Both the position numbers and the translations under genes were made by a program. A DNA stretch of 28,652 nucleotides from a virus, in IMG/VR virus record IMGVR_UViG_3300025141_000550, positions 1 through 28,652 of that record; one strand, given 5' to 3'. The first letter of the stretch is position 1. Each line of letters opens with the position of its first letter. The notes under the pieces are model-generated. The model searched no databases, was not told the DNA's origin, and saw only the letters and a list, made by a program, of their open reading frames with translations. Below, piece after piece: positions 1 through 11,935 of this stretch.

Positions 1-292
1 TCACAGGTCTATGTCCAAAATGCGGAAGTATGTCTTTATCCATACAAGCCACCACGTCAATATAAGTCCTTAACGCTCTATTTTTATTCAGCCACTCCAT
101 GTACTCAGGATAGATATTGAGGATAGTGGGGTTGGTAGGGGTCTGGGTGATATGTAGCTGTTTGGTAGCCCTCTCAATCTGCTGCGCCTCCTTGAGTGTA
201 CCTTTAAAGATACGCTGCACCCTCTTGCCATCTCTCCCAGAGGGGTAGTAGTCAATGATATACTTATCTTTCCCTTTTTGCCTTATCGACAT
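1..292 (-). CDS. int: Tyrosine-recombinase integrase, N-terminal part (cut by window edge)
   Basis: The 97 visible codons start MSIRQKGKDKYIIDYYP and continue with GRDGKRVQRIFKGTLKEA, a typical arm-binding AP2-like N-terminus of phage integrases. The start of a SAM-like core-binding domain follows (YPEYMEWLNKNRALRTYIDVV). The catalytic R-H-R-Y domain lies outside the window, so the assignment rests on the N-terminus and on context. The enzyme would catalyse site-specific recombination between phage and host attachment sites. The start overlaps the end of the upstream XRE gene by 29 nt, so the two are probably co-transcribed leftward and translationally coupled. No attachment site can be seen here; it would be expected past the left edge. 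Confidence 0.85.
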   Translation of the reverse strand, partial: MSIRQKGKDKYIIDYYPSGRDGKRVQRIFKGTLKEAQQIERATKQLHITQTPTNPTILNIYPEYMEWLNKNRALRTYIDVVACMDKDILPHFGHRPV

Positions 293-560
293 TGTCCATA
301 AACCTTTTTAAGTCAGTAAAATTGATTTCCTCATCCCTTTTTTTGCAACCGTCAATGATTTCATCTACAGATATTCTGTACTCGGTGTGCAGAAATTCCA
401 GCAGCCTAAATGAGATTCTTACCCTTCCAGCCTTCATTTCAGTCAATTCTGACTCAGATATACCCATTTTTTTTGCAACTTCTTTCTGGCGTAACCCTTT
501 ATCTTTTATAGACTTAAAGATTCTTGCAATTATTTCTTCAGATATTTTGTATTTTTCCAT
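264..560 (-). CDS. XRE-family helix-turn-helix regulator, probable phage repressor
   Basis: A 98-aa protein starting MEKYKISEEIIARIFKSI. The segment LRQKEVAKKMGISESELTEMKAGR (about residues 22-45) is a Cro/C1-type helix-turn-helix, and a short charged tail follows. There is no peptidase (LexA/CI S24) domain, so any induction would need an antirepressor or another route. The open frame extends upstream to 677, but that part reads as hydrophobic AT-rich non-coding sequence and lacks a ribosome site, so the internal ATG at 560 is preferred. The gene is divergent from the early genes and overlaps the integrase start, which suits a lysogeny repressor acting on the 561-666 interval. A plain DNA-binding regulator of integrase is the alternative. 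Confidence 0.8.
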   Translation of the reverse strand: MEKYKISEEIIARIFKSIKDKGLRQKEVAKKMGISESELTEMKAGRVRISFRLLEFLHTEYRISVDEIIDGCKKRDEEINFTDLKRFMDNVDKAKRER

Positions 561-666
561 TGATATAATCCAGATACTCTGTACAATCACACTAAATAAA
601 GATTGATTTGTAACAATTATAACATTTATTTTTAAAAAAAGGTTCACAAAAAAAGGAGAGAGAAAA
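561..666. promoter_or_regulatory. Divergent control region between repressor and early genes
   Basis: An AT-rich interval between divergent genes. On the minus strand a perfect TATAAT with an upstream TGT (extended -10; 616-621 in plus coordinates) is well placed for the repressor-integrase transcript. On the plus strand a weaker candidate is TTGATT (603-608) with TTATTT 17 nt later. Two short palindromes could be operator half-sites: TTGTAACAA at 608-616 and TGTACA at 580-585. The ribosome site of the first early gene (AGGAGAG) lies at 653-659. Operator identity is a guess. Confidence 0.45.
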
Positions 667-885
667 ATGAAAAACATATTAAGGGAAAAGAGGGTTGGTC
701 GAGGGGGTCTTTCAAGTTATCAAGTCGAAAATTTAAAAAGAAGATTTAAAAATGTAGAGCAGGTAAAACCTCTGTTTATGGCAAAGGGGTACACTGAAGA
801 ATATTTCAGTGACACCATAGCACCACAAATCTTGGTGTCTGGGAAAGATAAAGTCCTTAGTGAATATGCACACATAATTCTTTAG
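667..885 (+). CDS. Small early protein of unknown function (72 aa)
   Basis: The first rightward gene opposite the repressor, with a clear AGGAGAG ribosome site 7 nt before the ATG. The N-terminus is very basic (MKNILREKRVGRGG, then QVENLKRRFKN), and the rest is mixed with no cysteines and no membrane segment. The position is that of cro in lambdoid phages, but I cannot recognise a confident helix-turn-helix. It may be a small DNA-binding or host-takeover protein. A hairpin with a T-run follows the stop, so this gene may form a short transcript or lie ahead of an early attenuator. Confidence 0.6.
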   Translation: MKNILREKRVGRGGLSSYQVENLKRRFKNVEQVKPLFMAKGYTEEYFSDTIAPQILVSGKDKVLSEYAHIIL

Positions 886-1213: not shown

Positions 1214-1441
1214 ATGAATAAAACCAGAAGGCATTTTGATAAGGACTACAAGCCGAAGTGCTACAAGTGTGGGAAGGTGATTAAAGAGCTTGTGGAATTT
1301 AATTGGTATCGGGAAAACCTAAAACACTCGGCATCGTATTTTGATGCTGCGAAAAAAGCAAACAATAAAGTGGTCAGAGTTGGTGCTGAATTGTACCGAC
1401 ACAATCGAGAGAGGTGCGAGCCTCTCTGGGAGAGGAGGTGA
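1214..1441 (+). CDS. Small basic CxxC protein, possible zinc ribbon (75 aa)
   Basis: Function unknown. The N-terminal part is strongly basic (MNKTRRHFDKDYKPK) and carries a C16-x2-C19 knuckle (CYKCGK). H63 and C68 (RHNRERCEP) could complete a zinc site. It has an AAAGGGAG ribosome site upstream. Its 3' end supplies the ribosome site (AGGAGGTGA, up to 1441) of the next gene, so the two genes are coupled. The residue pattern suggests a small nucleic-acid-binding protein, but this is inference only. Confidence 0.6.
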   Translation: MNKTRRHFDKDYKPKCYKCGKVIKELVEFNWYRENLKHSASYFDAAKKANNKVVRVGAELYRHNRERCEPLWERR

Positions 1442-1442
1442 A

Positions 1443-1631
1443 ATGAAAAAGACAAAGCTGAACAGCCTGTTATATCAGCGAGGTATGACAGGCAAAGAGT
1501 TGGCATACGCTATCGGGGTCAAAAAATCCCGATACTATGCAGTAGCATCAGGGCATGAGACTACTCGGTGGATTAGGGAGTCGATTGCAGAATATCTGGA
1601 TGTAAAACCAGAGAAGTTATGGAGGGATTAA
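1443..1631 (+). CDS. Small helix-turn-helix protein (62 aa), Ner/Cro-like regulator
   Basis: The protein starts MKKTKLNSLLYQRGMTGKEL. MTGKELAYAIGVKKSRYYAVASG (about residues 15-37) fits a helix-turn-helix, and the closing helix SIAEYLDVKPEKLW is typical of Cro/Ner-like phage regulators. The open frame begins at 1341, but a near-perfect AGGAGGTGA site 6 nt upstream points to the ATG at 1443. It would bind an operator and control early or lysogenic transcription, and is a better Cro-equivalent candidate than the gene at 667. The target site is not known. Confidence 0.7.
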   Translation: MKKTKLNSLLYQRGMTGKELAYAIGVKKSRYYAVASGHETTRWIRESIAEYLDVKPEKLWRD

Positions 1632-6531: not shown

Positions 6532-6579
6532 TCGGGAAATCTAATTTTATGTTTAATTTTAATTATGGAGAATAAGATT

Positions 6580-7134
6580 ATGGGAAAAAAAATAATGACA
6601 CCAGAGTTCAAGGTTGCGTTTAATCATTTGTTTGAGGCAAAGGAGAATCTGAGCGGAAAGCTCAAGTACTCTGTCACAATGCTCTTTGATAAGACAAGTG
6701 CAGACCTGAGTGAAGTTAAGAAGATTATTAAAGAGACGGCAAAGGACAGATGGGGTAGTAAGCTCCCGAAAGACTTGAAATCTCCAATCTCTGACGGAGA
6801 CGAGAAAGAGTATAAGGGTTTTGAAAATTCTTGGTACATTAATGCTAGCTCAGATTTTAAGGCTGGGGTTGTGGATGCTGAGTGTCAGGAAATAATAGAC
6901 CCTTCTGAGCTATATGCTGGCTGCTACGCACGAGCAACTATAAACGCTTATGCGTGGGAGAATATGGGGAGAAAAGGTGTGAGCGTGAGTGTGCAGAATA
7001 TTCAGAAGCTAAGAGATTGTGAACCAGAGGAGAGGCTTGACGGTAGAAGTGACGCTGCCTCAGACTTCGAGCCTGTCGGTGCGGTGGCAAGCACTACCTC
7101 AGATGATGCTGATTCTGACGATATCTTTGCATAA
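6580..7134 (+). CDS. DUF2815 single-stranded DNA-binding protein
   Basis: About 184 aa. MGKKIMTPEFKVAFNHLF, YSVTMLFDKTSADLSEVK and GCYARATINAYAWEN are typical of DUF2815 phage proteins, relatives of T7 gp2.5-type OB-fold ssDNA-binding proteins. The C-terminal tail is acidic (TTSDDADSDDIFA) and ends in an aromatic, the usual protein-interaction tip of ssDNA-binding proteins. It would coat single strands at forks and recruit the helicase/primase. An earlier in-frame ATG at 6565 lacks a ribosome site; GGAG at 6567-6570 serves the ATG at 6580, so the shorter form is preferred. It follows the DUF2800 gene in the common order. Confidence 0.88.
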   Translation: MGKKIMTPEFKVAFNHLFEAKENLSGKLKYSVTMLFDKTSADLSEVKKIIKETAKDRWGSKLPKDLKSPISDGDEKEYKGFENSWYINASSDFKAGVVDAECQEIIDPSELYAGCYARATINAYAWENMGRKGVSVSVQNIQKLRDCEPEERLDGRSDAASDFEPVGAVASTTSDDADSDDIFA

Positions 7135-7157: not shown

Positions 7158-7189
7158 GAGGCACAGTATGAATATTCATACTGTGTCTC
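7158..7189. promoter_or_regulatory. Long palindrome over the ribosome site and start codon of the primase-helicase gene
   Basis: CACAGTATGAAT (7162-7173) is followed at once by its exact reverse complement ATTCATACTGTG (7174-7185). The pairing extends outward through GAGG (7158-7161) and TCTC (7186-7189) with one G-U, for 16 bp in all. The AGAGG Shine-Dalgarno (7157-7161) and the ATG at 7168 both fall in the 5' arm. As RNA it could hide the start; as DNA it is a candidate operator or cruciform. Confidence 0.75.
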
Positions 7190-9483
7190 ACTCTTTATTA
7201 TATATGGAAAAAATAAACAGTTATAGAAATGCAATAAATACAGAGGGAGGCACTACCACTGTCAGCACTTTTCTGGAGAGTATAAAAAATGAGAAGTTTA
7301 AGGATAAAATTGAATATCTGAGGTCTTTAAAAAATAAAGATGACAAGCGTAGATACAAGACCTCTTTGCCTTGCGTTACAATATCAGGTTTATTCAGCGA
7401 GCGCAAAGAGAACTGCGTCATAAAATACACATATCTGATTTGTCTTGATTTTGACGATATTGCCGACACTAAATACACAAGACAATTATTACAGTCTGAC
7501 GTATATTCCTATTGTGTCTCACTCTCAGCATCAGGGAACGGTTTCTTTGTTATTGTCAAACTGGAGAGCGAAGGAGCTGTGCTTTGCACACCAGATGAGA
7601 TTAGGCAATATCACACCGAGCAATTCCATAAGCTCCAGATATATTACAAAGATAAATATGACCTTGCTATTGATAAGAGCTGTAAGAATCTCTCCAGACT
7701 CCGCTTTGTTTCATCAGATAAGGATATACACATAAATCCACAATCAAGGGCATTTAAAGTGCCTGTATCGCCTCCTGAGCCACGCAGGGCAGTGGGTAGG
7801 GGTATAGACATACCTCTCCAGATTGATGAGCAGTTAGAGGGTGAAATAGAGGGTATTGTGGAAGAAATCAAGAGAGACAGGGTTGTCATAGGGTCAGATG
7901 ATTATGACGACTGGCTAAAACTTGCCTTTGCCTTATCGGACTCGCTGGGTGAGCGTGGGAGGTCTTATTTTCATGAGATATCAAAGCAGTCGGATAAATA
8001 CGAGCCAGATGATTGTGACAGGCAGTATGATGTGGTATTAGAGAGACCAAAGCGGTTTGACGGCATCACAATATCAACTTTTTTTGATTACGCTAAAAAA
8101 AGTGGTATCGGCAATAATGGTCATGTGGAGGTTGATGACCATGACAATGATGTCATTCCTCTTTATAGCCATATACCAAGTTCAGAGGAGTTTCCGATAA
8201 AGGCTCTGCCTCTAATAGCACAGGAATACATCAGGGAGGTGGCAAGGACAAATCAAGTTGACATAGCTCTTGCAGCTAATGGATATCTAGCAACACTCTC
8301 AGTGGCTCTCACAGGAAAATGTAGCGTTAATACTGGCACAATAGAGGAACCACTAAACTTATATATATGCTCAATATTACCATCTGGAGAGCGTAAAAGC
8401 TCCACGCTCAAGAAAATCATCGAGCCAATAAGTATATACGAGTCAGAGATGGACACACAACTACTGGCTGACGATGTGACAACCGAATCTCTGGGAGCGG
8501 TATTAAAGAAGAATGATGAGAGGATAGGTATTGTCTCGGCAGAAGGCGGTATCTTTGACACTATTGCTGGTAGAAAATACTCTGCCAGTGGAGTTGCTAA
8601 TCTGGACTTATGGCTTAAAGGGTATATGGGAGAGACATCCAGAGCGCATAGAAAAACCTCAGATGATATTCTACTCAACAATCCACTCATCTCATTATAT
8701 CTCTCAGTACAGCCAAGAACGATAGAGACTATATCTCATAATCCTGATTTTCATGGCAGAGGTTTTATAGCAAGGTTCCTGTTCTCCGAGTGCCAGCCTA
8801 AAGCTGGTAAGAGAGTGAGGCAAGATATTCCAATCAGTCAGGAGCTTATACAGAGATATTACGCTCATATCCTAGAGATGCTGCACACGGAAACCCAGAT
8901 GTATACATCTTATACTGCAACGAGGAGAGGTAATTCTGCACAGGATATGCTGGCACGATATAACCAGAAGAAAAATATCCCGATTTTAACCCTGTCTCCA
9001 GATGCACAGGCTTTATGGAATAGACTGGCTGATGATATTGAAGGTGAACTGGCAGAGGGAGGTGTGCTGTCTGAGTTAAAAGAGTGGGGTCAAAGGGTGG
9101 CTGGCAACACAGCGAGGCTCTCAGGGTTGCTCCACATGGCTACAATAGGTATAGGAGAGCCTGTAATCGAGGTCGATACAATGGAACAAGCTATTGAGAT
9201 AATCGAATACTACAAAGGTCATAGTGTAAATGTATTAAAGAGTATGATGGCGGTTACAACACCGGACCAGAAATACGCACAGACGATTATTGATTGCTGG
9301 AAGAAAAAAGGATTGAAGAAGGGTGATATCTTTACCGGCAGGGATATCCTGAGAACTAACCATAGAAGGTTTAACGGCATGAAAAGTGTCCATGATGGGC
9401 TTAATGTCTTGGGGGAGCATGGGTATATCAAGAGGAAGAACAAAGAATTTAAGATAGTGGCTACAGAGGAAATTGGAAAGTGA
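7168..9483 (+). CDS. VirE_N / PriCT-2 / DUF3987 primase-helicase-like replication protein
   Basis: The 771 aa form three blocks. The N-terminal 1-200 is VirE_N/BT4734-like, with the acidic LDFDD (93-97), SASGNGFF (119-126) and KDKYDLAID followed by LRFVSSD; this is a primase-like fold. About 245-315 (DDYDDWLKLAFAL to TISTFFDYAKKSG) is a PriCT-2 domain. About 345-700 is DUF3987, with the Walker A-like PSGERKSS (405-412). The protein would prime and/or unwind DNA at the phage origin. The start at 7168 has an AGAGG site but both lie in a long palindrome; an ATG at 7204 is the fallback. The stop lies inside a perfect 12-bp hairpin, and the iteron cluster follows directly. Confidence 0.87.
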   Translation: MNIHTVSHSLLYMEKINSYRNAINTEGGTTTVSTFLESIKNEKFKDKIEYLRSLKNKDDKRRYKTSLPCVTISGLFSERKENCVIKYTYLICLDFDDIADTKYTRQLLQSDVYSYCVSLSASGNGFFVIVKLESEGAVLCTPDEIRQYHTEQFHKLQIYYKDKYDLAIDKSCKNLSRLRFVSSDKDIHINPQSRAFKVPVSPPEPRRAVGRGIDIPLQIDEQLEGEIEGIVEEIKRDRVVIGSDDYDDWLKLAFALSDSLGERGRSYFHEISKQSDKYEPDDCDRQYDVVLERPKRFDGITISTFFDYAKKSGIGNNGHVEVDDHDNDVIPLYSHIPSSEEFPIKALPLIAQEYIREVARTNQVDIALAANGYLATLSVALTGKCSVNTGTIEEPLNLYICSILPSGERKSSTLKKIIEPISIYESEMDTQLLADDVTTESLGAVLKKNDERIGIVSAEGGIFDTIAGRKYSASGVANLDLWLKGYMGETSRAHRKTSDDILLNNPLISLYLSVQPRTIETISHNPDFHGRGFIARFLFSECQPKAGKRVRQDIPISQELIQRYYAHILEMLHTETQMYTSYTATRRGNSAQDMLARYNQKKNIPILTLSPDAQALWNRLADDIEGELAEGGVLSELKEWGQRVAGNTARLSGLLHMATIGIGEPVIEVDTMEQAIEIIEYYKGHSVNVLKSMMAVTTPDQKYAQTIIDCWKKKGLKKGDIFTGRDILRTNHRRFNGMKSVHDGLNVLGEHGYIKRKNKEFKIVATEEIGK

Positions 9484-9508
9484 TAAGGTTGAGGTTTCAA
9501 CCTTATCA
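9481..9508. repeat. Perfect hairpin at the end of the primase-helicase gene
   Basis: TGATAAGGTTGA (9481-9492) and TCAACCTTATCA (9497-9508) form a 12-bp perfect stem with a GGTT loop. The first three bases are the gene's stop codon. No T-run follows, so it is not a classical terminator. It may protect the 3' end of the message or belong to the origin region that starts here. Confidence 0.75.
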
Positions 9509-9528
9509 GTATGAGGTGTGAAAGTCAA

Positions 9529-9550
9529 GCTAATTGTGGTCATAATTAGC
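9529..9550. repeat. Second hairpin at left edge of putative origin
   Basis: GCTAATTGTG (9529-9538) pairs with CATAATTAGC (9541-9550), with one G-U and a very tight loop, so as DNA it is a near-palindrome. It lies between the primase-gene hairpin and the first GGTGACA repeat. Confidence 0.6.
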
Positions 9551-9596
9551 CACTACAAACCACATCTTGTATAGCAAGTACAGGGGATTGAGGTTT

Positions 9597-9839
9597 TGTC
9601 ACCAGAATAGGTAAAAGAAAAAAGAAAAAAGTGGTGACAATGGTGACAAATAGGTTTTTAAAAAGTTAAGTATATATATACACTGTATTTAACTACCAAA
9701 AAAGTGTCACCAAATAGCGGTGACAATTGTCACCAAATGGTGACAGAATGGGTGATTGTACACACAATATTGCCTATTTATTGTGATTATTGTGGGTTTT
9801 GCCTTATTTTGTCACCATTTGTCACCAGAGGCGGTGACA
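9597..9839. repeat. Cluster of ten GGTGACA iterons in both orientations, putative replication origin
   Basis: The 7-mer GGTGACA occurs on the plus strand at 9633, 9642, 9719, 9739 and 9833. Its complement TGTCACC begins at 9597, 9705, 9728, 9810 and 9820. Two copies meet as a perfect 16-bp palindrome, GGTGACAATTGTCACC (9719-9734). Between repeats 3 and 4 lies an AT-only run (TATATATATA, 9671-9680) flanked by AGTTAA (9664-9669) and TTAACT (9689-9694), as expected for a DNA-unwinding element. The cluster sits next to the primase-helicase gene. Repeats plus AT-rich DNA plus a replication gene is the usual origin layout, but initiator binding is inferred. Confidence 0.75.
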
Positions 9840-9856
9840 CTTTTACTATACAAGAT

Positions 9857-10075
9857 ATGGATAAACAAAATAGAATAAATTCCCTGATTGAGGTGCTTTT
9901 GAATGTTGGCTCTGGCTTCTTGCTATCGTGGCTGACCACGCTCATTATTATTCCGATTATCCTGCCAGTCAAACACATCACCGCTCAGGACGGCTTATCT
10001 ATAACGATTACATTTACCGTCATATCGCTCATCAGGAGCTATGCGTGGAGGCGGTACTTCAACAACAGGCATTAA
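9857..10075 (+). CDS. Small two-helix membrane protein (72 aa), DUF7220-like
   Basis: It runs MDKQNRINSLIEVLLNVGSG, then a first hydrophobic helix (about 15-37), a short loop, a second helix (about 47-61) and a basic end RSYAWRRYFNN. SLIEVLLNVGSGF together with RSYAWRRYFN is a signature I recall from a widespread small phage/plasmid membrane family (DUF7220 type), whose function is unknown. The open frame goes back to 9704, but that part is only a translation of the GGTGACA repeats, so the ATG at 9857 is chosen. No clear ribosome site precedes it. The stop lies inside the first hairpin of the 39-bp tandem repeat. Confidence 0.75.
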   Translation: MDKQNRINSLIEVLLNVGSGFLLSWLTTLIIIPIILPVKHITAQDGLSITITFTVISLIRSYAWRRYFNNRH

Positions 10076-10161
10076 GCCTGTTGCGTAATGGATTAATCCA
10101 TTAACAGGCACTAAGCCTGTTGCGTAATGGATTAATCCATTAACAGGCACTAACAGGCACT
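10064..10161. repeat. 39-bp tandem repeat built of two palindromes
   Basis: Units start at 10064, 10103 and 10142 (period 39), and the third is cut short and followed by a 10-nt partial copy. Each full unit has a stem AACAGGC / GCCTGTT (10064-10082; 10103-10121) and a perfect 18-bp palindrome, TAATGGATTAATCCATTA (10086-10103; 10125-10142). The two complete copies differ by one base. It begins at the stop of the DUF7220-like gene. The multiple hairpins resemble mobile intergenic palindromes or a protein-binding array. Confidence 0.8.
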
Positions 10162-10367
10162 AAGGCAGCATAAACACATCAAATAAGGGCATACAACACA
10201 CACCCGAACAGATTGAGGCAAATTAATAAAAGTAGTATAGATTGTAATGATAACATCTTAGATTTTAAGGCACAGAGGTAGGTGAGGGCGCGCGAGCCAC
10301 ACACTTCTTTTTTTTTGCCCAGACCTTCCGGACCAGCACCTCCTCCACATACACCAGAACATCATAG

Positions 10368-10657: not shown

Positions 10658-11935
10658 ATGAATAAAGCGACAGAACTAGAGCCACTTATTTGGCACAATG
10701 AGCGTAGACGTATTGACGAGCTTATCCCTTATGATAAGAATCCCAGACGGCTCACCAAGCAGCAAAGGTCTGACCTTAAGGACTCGATATCACGTTTTCA
10801 TTTGGTAGAAGTGCCAGCTATTAACACCGACAATACGATTGTGTCGGGGCATATGCGACTTAAAGTATTATCTGGTATTGAGGGCAGGGATTATGAGGTT
10901 GACGTGCGTGTGCCAAGCAGAACGCTCACAGAGCAAGAGTTTAAAGAATACAATATCCGAGCCAATAAGAACACAGGTGAGTTTGATTTCGATATCCTAA
11001 GCTCGGCTTTTGAGTACGATGACTTACAGGACTGGGGATTTAGTGATGACGAGCTTACGGACTTCACCGTTGACCTTATTGATGATGACAGCGATGCCGA
11101 TGACGTTGCACCAGATAAGCCTGAGAAGGCTCGGTCTCAGTTGGGCGATATATACGAGCTTGGCAATCATCGTGTTATGTGTGGCGATAGTACAGATAAG
11201 GAGGTAGTCGCTGCTTTAATGAATGGCGATAAGGCTGACATTTGTTTTACATCACCACCGTATAACACTGGAAACAACAATCTAGGTGGCAACTCAAATA
11301 TGAAGTCGTCAAAATATTTGAATAGTAGTGATAATAAAAAAGATAACGAGTGGCTTGCCCTTATCAGTGCAGTCCTTTTAAATATGCAAAAGGTCACGGT
11401 TAATCAATGTTTTAATATTCAGCAGTTATCAAACAATAAAAGAGAGTTGATTGAGTTTTTGTATAAGTTCCGTAGCTATCTGGTTGACACTTCAATCTGG
11501 AATAAGGGAGGGGGTCAACCAACTATGGCAGATAGTGTAATGAACTCAAGATTTGAGTATGTTTTTATTTTTCAGTCAGGTTCAGATGCTAAAAGAAAGA
11601 TAGATTCTAAATTCTTTAGAAATGTCTCAAATGTATTTGATTACAACCCATCAGGGAAAAATGACCATTCAAATATACACGCAGCAGTGTTTCCGCTTTT
11701 ATTTGTTGAGCATTATATAGGGTTTTTGTCGAGGAGGAGTGTTGTTGACCCTTTTCTAGGGTCGGGAACCACATTAATCGCTTGTGAAAAGACAAAGAGA
11801 AGGTGTTACGGTATGGAGTTAGACCCTCAATATATGGATGTAATCGTGCAGCGATATGTGGATTATACAGGCAATAATAATATAAGACTAAACGGTGAGG
11901 ATATAGAGTGGGGTGATAATGGGCAAAACACCTGA
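10658..11935 (+). CDS. ParB-domain-fused DNA methyltransferase (N4-C/N6-A type)
   Basis: The 425 aa form two parts. Residues 12-105 are ParB/sulfiredoxin-like (IDELIPYDKNPRRLT, then VSGHMRLKV with the GHxR box at 64-67). Residues 160-410 are a class-beta methyltransferase, with catalytic motif IV TSPPY (198-202) before the SAM-binding motif I DPFLGSGTT (364-372). It transfers methyl groups to exocyclic amino groups of adenine or cytosine in DNA, probably to shield phage DNA from host restriction or to mark it for packaging. The target sequence is unknown and no restriction enzyme partner is present. The middle region is divergent, so specificity may be unusual. There is no ribosome site at normal distance. 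The 3' end overlaps the small terminase start by 17 nt. Confidence 0.9.
   Translation: MNKATELEPLIWHNERRRIDELIPYDKNPRRLTKQQRSDLKDSISRFHLVEVPAINTDNTIVSGHMRLKVLSGIEGRDYEVDVRVPSRTLTEQEFKEYNIRANKNTGEFDFDILSSAFEYDDLQDWGFSDDELTDFTVDLIDDDSDADDVAPDKPEKARSQLGDIYELGNHRVMCGDSTDKEVVAALMNGDKADICFTSPPYNTGNNNLGGNSNMKSSKYLNSSDNKKDNEWLALISAVLLNMQKVTVNQCFNIQQLSNNKRELIEFLYKFRSYLVDTSIWNKGGGQPTMADSVMNSRFEYVFIFQSGSDAKRKIDSKFFRNVSNVFDYNPSGKNDHSNIHAAVFPLLFVEHYIGFLSRRSVVDPFLGSGTTLIACEKTKRRCYGMELDPQYMDVIVQRYVDYTGNNNIRLNGEDIEWGDNGQNT

Follow-up and report, generated by a model that had tools for sequence, protein, structure and literature searches.

A mirrored array of GGTGACA boxes 3' of a phage primase-helicase gene as a probable replication origin of the P4/PICI type

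In a complete IMG/VR record of 28,652 bp, analysed here as one window, ten copies of the heptamer GGTGACA are crowded behind a gene encoding a primase-helicase, which raises the question of what these repeats do and which protein reads them. We consider it very probable that the array is a phage replication origin, or an essential cis element, of the type known from phage P4 and the PICIs, and that it is recognised by the primase-helicase encoded just upstream. This reading is based on the reality and uniqueness of the array, its recurrence beside DUF3987 genes, the constancy of the upstream partner, a winged helix predicted in that partner, and the precedents of P4, PICIs and NrS-1. The array comprises the following elements:

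9633, 9642, 9719, 9739 and 9833, plus strand: GGTGACA iterons
9597, 9705, 9728, 9810 and 9820, minus strand: GGTGACA iterons
9719-9734: central 16-bp palindrome GGTGACAATTGTCACC, formed by a pair of opposed boxes with 2 bp between them and located close to the array's centre of dyad symmetry
9649-9704: AT-rich spacer, candidate melting site, 80% A+T, containing TATATATATA
9746-9809: second AT-rich spacer, between the central and right-hand boxes, 67% A+T
9560-9577, plus strand: left arm of the inverted repeat, CCACATCTTGTATAGCAA
9843-9860, minus strand: right arm of the inverted repeat, TTACTATACAAGATATGG, overlapping the start codon of the next gene (DUF7220)

Exact matching in the window places ten GGTGACA within 9597-9839, five on each strand in 243 bp, as the initial annotation had counted, and the longer consensus of the box is T-GGTGACA-A-(A/T). 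Only five more copies occur in the remaining 28.4 kb, and no other heptamer of the window clusters in this manner. In a look-elsewhere control, in which any heptamer was allowed in a 250-bp window, the top clustered word reached 10 copies in the real sequence versus 3-5 in 200 dinucleotide-preserving shuffles. One-mismatch copies are absent from 9480-9900, and the boxes thus seem strictly preserved. The order and orientation of the ten sites, -++-+-+--+, read the same after reverse complementation. About position 9727, eight sites are matched to within 6 bp by a mirror partner of opposite orientation, and the whole is enclosed by an 18-nt inverted repeat (89%; 9560-9577 / 9843-9860). The palindrome had been described as two touching copies and the spacer as an AT-only run; the palindrome is real but its copies are separated by 2 bp, and the spacer at 9649-9704 is AT-rich, not AT-only, and the window has a 50-bp stretch with an even higher A+T content. 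Since the boxes are opposed, the array folds well as single-stranded DNA (z -4.3), and an Rfam search returned no match.

A coding-repeat explanation was rejected for this array: the frame open across the repeats is not a gene, as had been suspected, and the DUF7220 gene begins at the ATG at 9857. Promoter-like and terminator-like matches overlap the boxes, as would suit an operator or promoter array for the DUF7220 gene or a late operon. Nevertheless, these matches follow from the repeated word itself, given that GTGACA resembles a -35 hexamer and that opposed boxes form hairpins, and ten sites in 243 bp in mirrored order exceed a usual operator. Such a regulatory role, to which we return below, is in our judgement very improbable.

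The genes surrounding the array and bearing on its function are:

6565-7134, plus strand: Enc34-type ssDNA-binding protein of the replication module, just upstream of the primase-helicase
7168-9483, plus strand: primase-helicase of 771 aa, with BT4734-like_N (aa 63-187), PriCT_2 (243-309) and DUF3987 helicase (best stretch 431-690)
9223-9480, plus strand: predicted C-terminal winged-helix domain (aa 686-771) of the same protein, proposed reader of the boxes
9857-10075, plus strand: DUF7220 small protein, first gene past the array

The array begins 113 bp past the stop codon (9483) of the primase-helicase gene, which it had been said to follow, and genes for a DUF2800 exonuclease and a SNF2-type helicase also lie upstream of the latter. 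Just past the DUF7220 gene, six AACAGGC in both orientations were observed at 10064-10165 in a near-duplicated unit, AACAGGCACTAAGCCTGTTGCGTAATGGATTAATCCATT, and a gene for a ParB-like/N6-N4 DNA methylase fusion (10658-11935) is located between the array and the terminase genes. The latter lie about 2 kb downstream of the array and include a terminase large subunit (phrog_3717) that is closest to the one of Nitratiruptor phage NrS-1, with about 50% identity. By reading, further long downstream frames resemble portal, head and tail genes, the profile scan having covered the terminase. The enclosing inverted repeat and the nearby terminase genes could alternatively point to an unrelated DNA feature, be it a set of integrase arm sites, a packaging site or a short insert bounded by the 18-nt repeat. 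However, about 9 kb separate the array from the likely integrase gene, no target duplication was seen adjoining the inverted repeat, and similar arrays adjoin primase-helicases of unrelated phages and chromosomal elements, so that we give this explanation hardly any credence.

A single-protein search found no close relatives of the window primase in IMG/VR or GTDB, no DNA match was present among phages, and no close relative of the phage spanning the array region was found. Terminase identity is 90-93% for contigs L002 and L003. The recurrence of the array was approached from two sides. In a DNA-first sampling, viral contigs were scanned for one 17-mer of the array, which yielded 28 contigs; 20 of these carry at least four GGTGACA within 400 bp, in both orientations in 16 of the 20. 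Large neighbouring genes tested by Pfam encode DUF3987 (L038), Toprim plus VapE (L033, L050), D5/DUF5906 (L036, L054) or PriCT_2 plus DUF5906 (L057), while in the motif-selected L037 group, L041 and L056 the array has no recognised primase-helicase adjoining it. The array of L037 (3515-3726), with counterparts in the related contigs L040, L045, L051 and L053, precedes a small ORF and a terminase gene, and none of its neighbours was recognised as a primase-helicase. One further candidate, L043 (1781-2048), was rejected as an iteron array, its 20 same-strand GGTGACA lying inside an ORF with a repetitive translation and thus representing a coding repeat.

The protein-first sampling collected 71 viral and 80 genome loci by protein similarity alone; 67 of their DUF3987 genes, non-redundant and with sufficient sequence on the 3' side, were scored for the top mixed-orientation heptamer in 400 bp around the gene end. 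The mean score was 3.70 at the DUF3987 3' ends, versus 2.27 at 420 other ORF ends and 2.42 on the 5' side, and at least five copies were present at 22.4% of the DUF3987 3' ends, versus 0.5% and 1.7%, respectively. The enrichment over other ORF ends is highly significant (Fisher p 3e-12 for at least five copies; Mann-Whitney p 2e-17). These 3' arrays are of mixed orientation and have a TGACA/GGACA core. In the summed profile of [GT]GACA[AG]A boxes, 72 on the minus strand fall at 0-100 bp past the gene and 59+26 (85) on the plus strand at 100-300 bp, with mostly single digits per bin elsewhere; from these strand-wise peaks we deduce a family layout of a left (minus) arm, an AT-rich core and a right (plus) arm. 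GGTGACA clusters by DUF3987 genes, for which the initial annotation had proposed a search, are seen in contig L038 and in a locus of Nocardia brasiliensis (L216, 3989-4276) in which 12 exact GGTGACA in both orientations follow a DUF3987 gene; across the helicase part, the product of this gene shares 31% identity with the window protein. The Nocardia box is thus the same as in the window, in a distant host. Relatives that keep the gene and lack the repeats, which had been named as evidence against an origin, do exist in part: by exact-heptamer counting about half of the DUF3987 loci have no clear array, and none was found 3' of the primase of the Bacteroidetes phages phi46:1 and P12024S (L062, L063).

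The ORFs downstream of the 31 loci with at least five boxes belong to 21 families, and because this neighbour varies, the upstream primase-helicase gene is the constant partner. That arrays recur by the same protein family despite so many different downstream genes is a further argument against an operator. Recurrence at the same place beside the same gene family supports the original proposal of an origin-type iteron array and, along with the change of downstream gene and the winged helix described below, that of the primase-helicase as its best partner.

Likewise, in the VapE-Toprim family the best mixed array lies on the 3' side in 18 of the 19 non-redundant loci with a scored array, mostly with 7-12 boxes of the TGGTGAC, GTGGGAC or TTGGGAC type; many of the arrays begin or lie around +50 to +300 bp, others at a distance of 1-3 kb. 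In four loci (L235, L279, L296, L297) the box 3' of the VapE gene is GTGGGAC/TTGGGAC in place of TGGTGAC, with a similar layout, and such natural variants lend themselves to deducing box specificity from the protein. A D5/DUF5906 family displays smaller arrays on the 5' side, no more than about 200 bp from the gene in 14 of the 16 loci scored. Both scans are less independent than the DUF3987 test, since their seeds were proteins found beside arrays by the DNA search. Among named phages, a mixed GGTTACA/AAGTGTA array of NrS-1 (L026, 17061-17362) starts 10 bp after the PrimPol gene and contains the only TTTGGTTA of the record, the published recognition octamer, of which two copies in the genome are given in PMC7102993; this array extends over the position annotated as the start of the hypothetical gene NRS1_29. 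In phi1422, ten GGTAACA in 300 bp start about 10 bp after the primase, and in Flavobacterium phage mumin6-4 eight AGGTAAC lie one gene downstream of it. NrS-3, which has an NrS-1-like terminase and no annotated PrimPol, has no comparable array, as expected.

A model of the C-terminal 86 aa of the primase-helicase, built on a 68-sequence alignment (pLDDT 80), displays the H-E-H-H-E-E order of a winged helix, and its fold matches include a GntR protein (Z 9.3) and BusR bound to its promoter (Z 9.2). The P4 alpha domain, 1KA8, is not among the fold matches listed for this model, and a sequence search of solved structures found no relative. The full protein model has a mean pLDDT of 65, with about 90 in the helicase part, and best matches MCM helicases (E 7e-6), a likeness that, the TM-scores being low, we take as a lead. 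By prediction, therefore, the protein combines a helicase domain with a C-terminal winged helix as expected of such an initiator. Another phage or host protein might instead read the boxes at the origin and recruit the primase-helicase; small HTH proteins are encoded in the early region (264-677, minus strand; 1341-1631, plus strand), and a one-mismatch DnaA-like box is found at 9856-9864. This is quite improbable in view of the predicted winged helix of the window protein itself, of relatives in which the array stays with the primase-helicase gene and the downstream gene changes, and of SCCmec Cch2, which binds iterons via its own C-terminal domain (PMC7581432).

Among the aligned residues of the protein, the one that best tracks the box base preceding GACA (G or T) is residue 733, in the helix-turn-helix, which is Arg in 32 of 33 GGACA loci versus 4 of 12 TGACA loci. 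A tree-aware covariation test of this pair found only four supported independent pairs and was not significant, and the C-terminal columns as a set are not above the helicase columns (p 0.10); covariation is for these reasons not claimed, and the alignment suggests that a G in the box may go with an Arg at position 733. We further entertain, tentatively and with more doubt than confidence, that many winged-helix-tailed primase-helicases of mobile elements (DUF3987 MCM-like, VapE-Toprim, D5/NrS-1 and P4) share an ancestral origin code, namely a box resembling GGTNACA / KGACAAA in mirrored arrays that load two opposed rings. Were this true, the box would be predictable from recognition-helix residues, for example GGACA boxes from an Arg at aligned position 733.

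By analogy with P4 alpha, PICI origins (PMC6092414) and Cch2 (PMC7581432), we hypothesize that the C-terminal winged helix would bind the GGTGACA boxes as duplex DNA, that boxes facing both ways around the AT-rich spacers would assemble two opposed helicase rings, that the DUF3987 AAA+ domain would melt the AT-rich DNA, and that the N-terminal BT4734-like/PriCT_2 primase would make the first primers. Dimeric binding of the boxes is possible by the same analogy, the P4 alpha domain being a regulated dimer according to the title of Yeo 2002 as cited in PMC4234260. Primer synthesis by the NrS-1 polymerase begins at TTTGGTTA and at GTGA/GTGG motifs (PMC8718748), and every GGTGACA includes GTGA; one may speculate that the boxes double as duplex binding sites and priming sites.

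The array is not of a new kind, since mixed orientation and a position 3' of the initiator are already known for P4 and PICIs. As far as a literature search shows, the novelty lies in its assignment to DUF3987 and VapE phage proteins, in the recurrence of a core resembling TGAC and in the connection with the NrS-1 site; no mapped origin for either class of primase-helicase turned up in that search. These arrays are at odds with the 2018 statement that no other known replicon has its origin organised as in PICIs (PMC6092414), and with the proposal, in the pRN1 paper, that AEP-helicase-winged-helix proteins use stem-loops without iterons (PMC4234260). Likely origins can be placed in numerous phages and integrated elements encoding DUF3987 or VapE primase-helicases, the P4/PICI layout is extended to tailed phages, and a candidate duplex-binding array is offered for the NrS-1 polymerase, whose origin had only been guessed from one octamer (PMC7102993). 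Compact, testable origin-plus-initiator pairs are thereby supplied.

Compared with known systems, the five plus and five minus sites of the window set it apart from classical iteron plasmid origins of the RepE/TrfA/pi type, with their direct repeats in one orientation. In pRN1, ORF904 likewise joins an AEP primase, a helicase and a C-terminal winged helix with an origin just 3' of the gene, but this origin is a 100-nt stem-loop reported without iterons (PMC4234260), in contrast to the ten exact iterons found here. In SCCmec Cch2, a helicase, the C-terminal domain recognises short repeats located just past the gene that encodes it (PMC7581432), as we propose for the window protein, although Cch2 has three direct AAGTG iterons, is of the D5 type and has its primase as a separate protein. 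NrS-1 shares with the window, besides the related terminase, a mixed array just 3' of the gene for its PrimPol (gp28), but this protein carries a DUF5906 helicase along with head, HBD and tail Pfam domains of its own, whereas the window protein has BT4734-like_N, PriCT_2 and DUF3987, and the NrS-1 octamer was defined as a single-strand priming site, not a duplex iteron (PMC8718748).

The closest precedents are PICIs and P4. The origin of PICI/SaPI elements is located immediately 3' of rep, and rep plus ori replicate a plasmid (PMC6092414, PMC7581432). Differently from the window, these elements are satellites, and the SaPI Rep helicases are of the DUF927 or D5 type (PMC7581432); a PICI lacks packaging and structural genes of its own, whereas the window encodes a terminase large subunit. 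PICI origins consist of two iteron sets flanking an AT-rich region (PMC6092414), which, as with P4, lends no support to the premise of the initial annotation that initiators use mainly direct repeats and that a mixed orientation is noteworthy. In P4, ten type-1 repeats annotated in both orientations make up crr, directly 3' of alpha, and those of ori1 are also mixed. The existence of these two clusters several kb apart leaves room for the array being required in cis without being the start site: bound by the primase-helicase, it would serve in loading, copy control or handcuffing, with strand opening elsewhere. We regard this as unlikely, for the window has a single cluster with AT-rich spacers inside, and a PICI rep-ori segment of this layout suffices for plasmid replication (PMC6092414). 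The preferred reading, an origin recognised by the adjacent primase-helicase, is in accordance with both precedents, since the array lies immediately 3' of the presumed initiator gene, at the same place in relatives, and its ten 7-bp boxes flank AT-rich spacers. P4 alpha, from a satellite phage that has two cis elements, differs from the window protein in its Toprim primase (PMC4234260); the window protein combines a BT4734-like/PriCT_2 primase with a DUF3987 helicase, and its phage encodes a terminase of its own. Nevertheless, P4 alpha binds its repeats via a C-terminal winged helix, as stated in PMC4234260 citing Yeo 2002, the P4 boxes are GGTGAACAG-like and have GGTGA in common with the GGTGACA of the window, and crr/alpha resembles the window in that a primase-helicase gene is directly followed by short G-rich iterons of both orientations.
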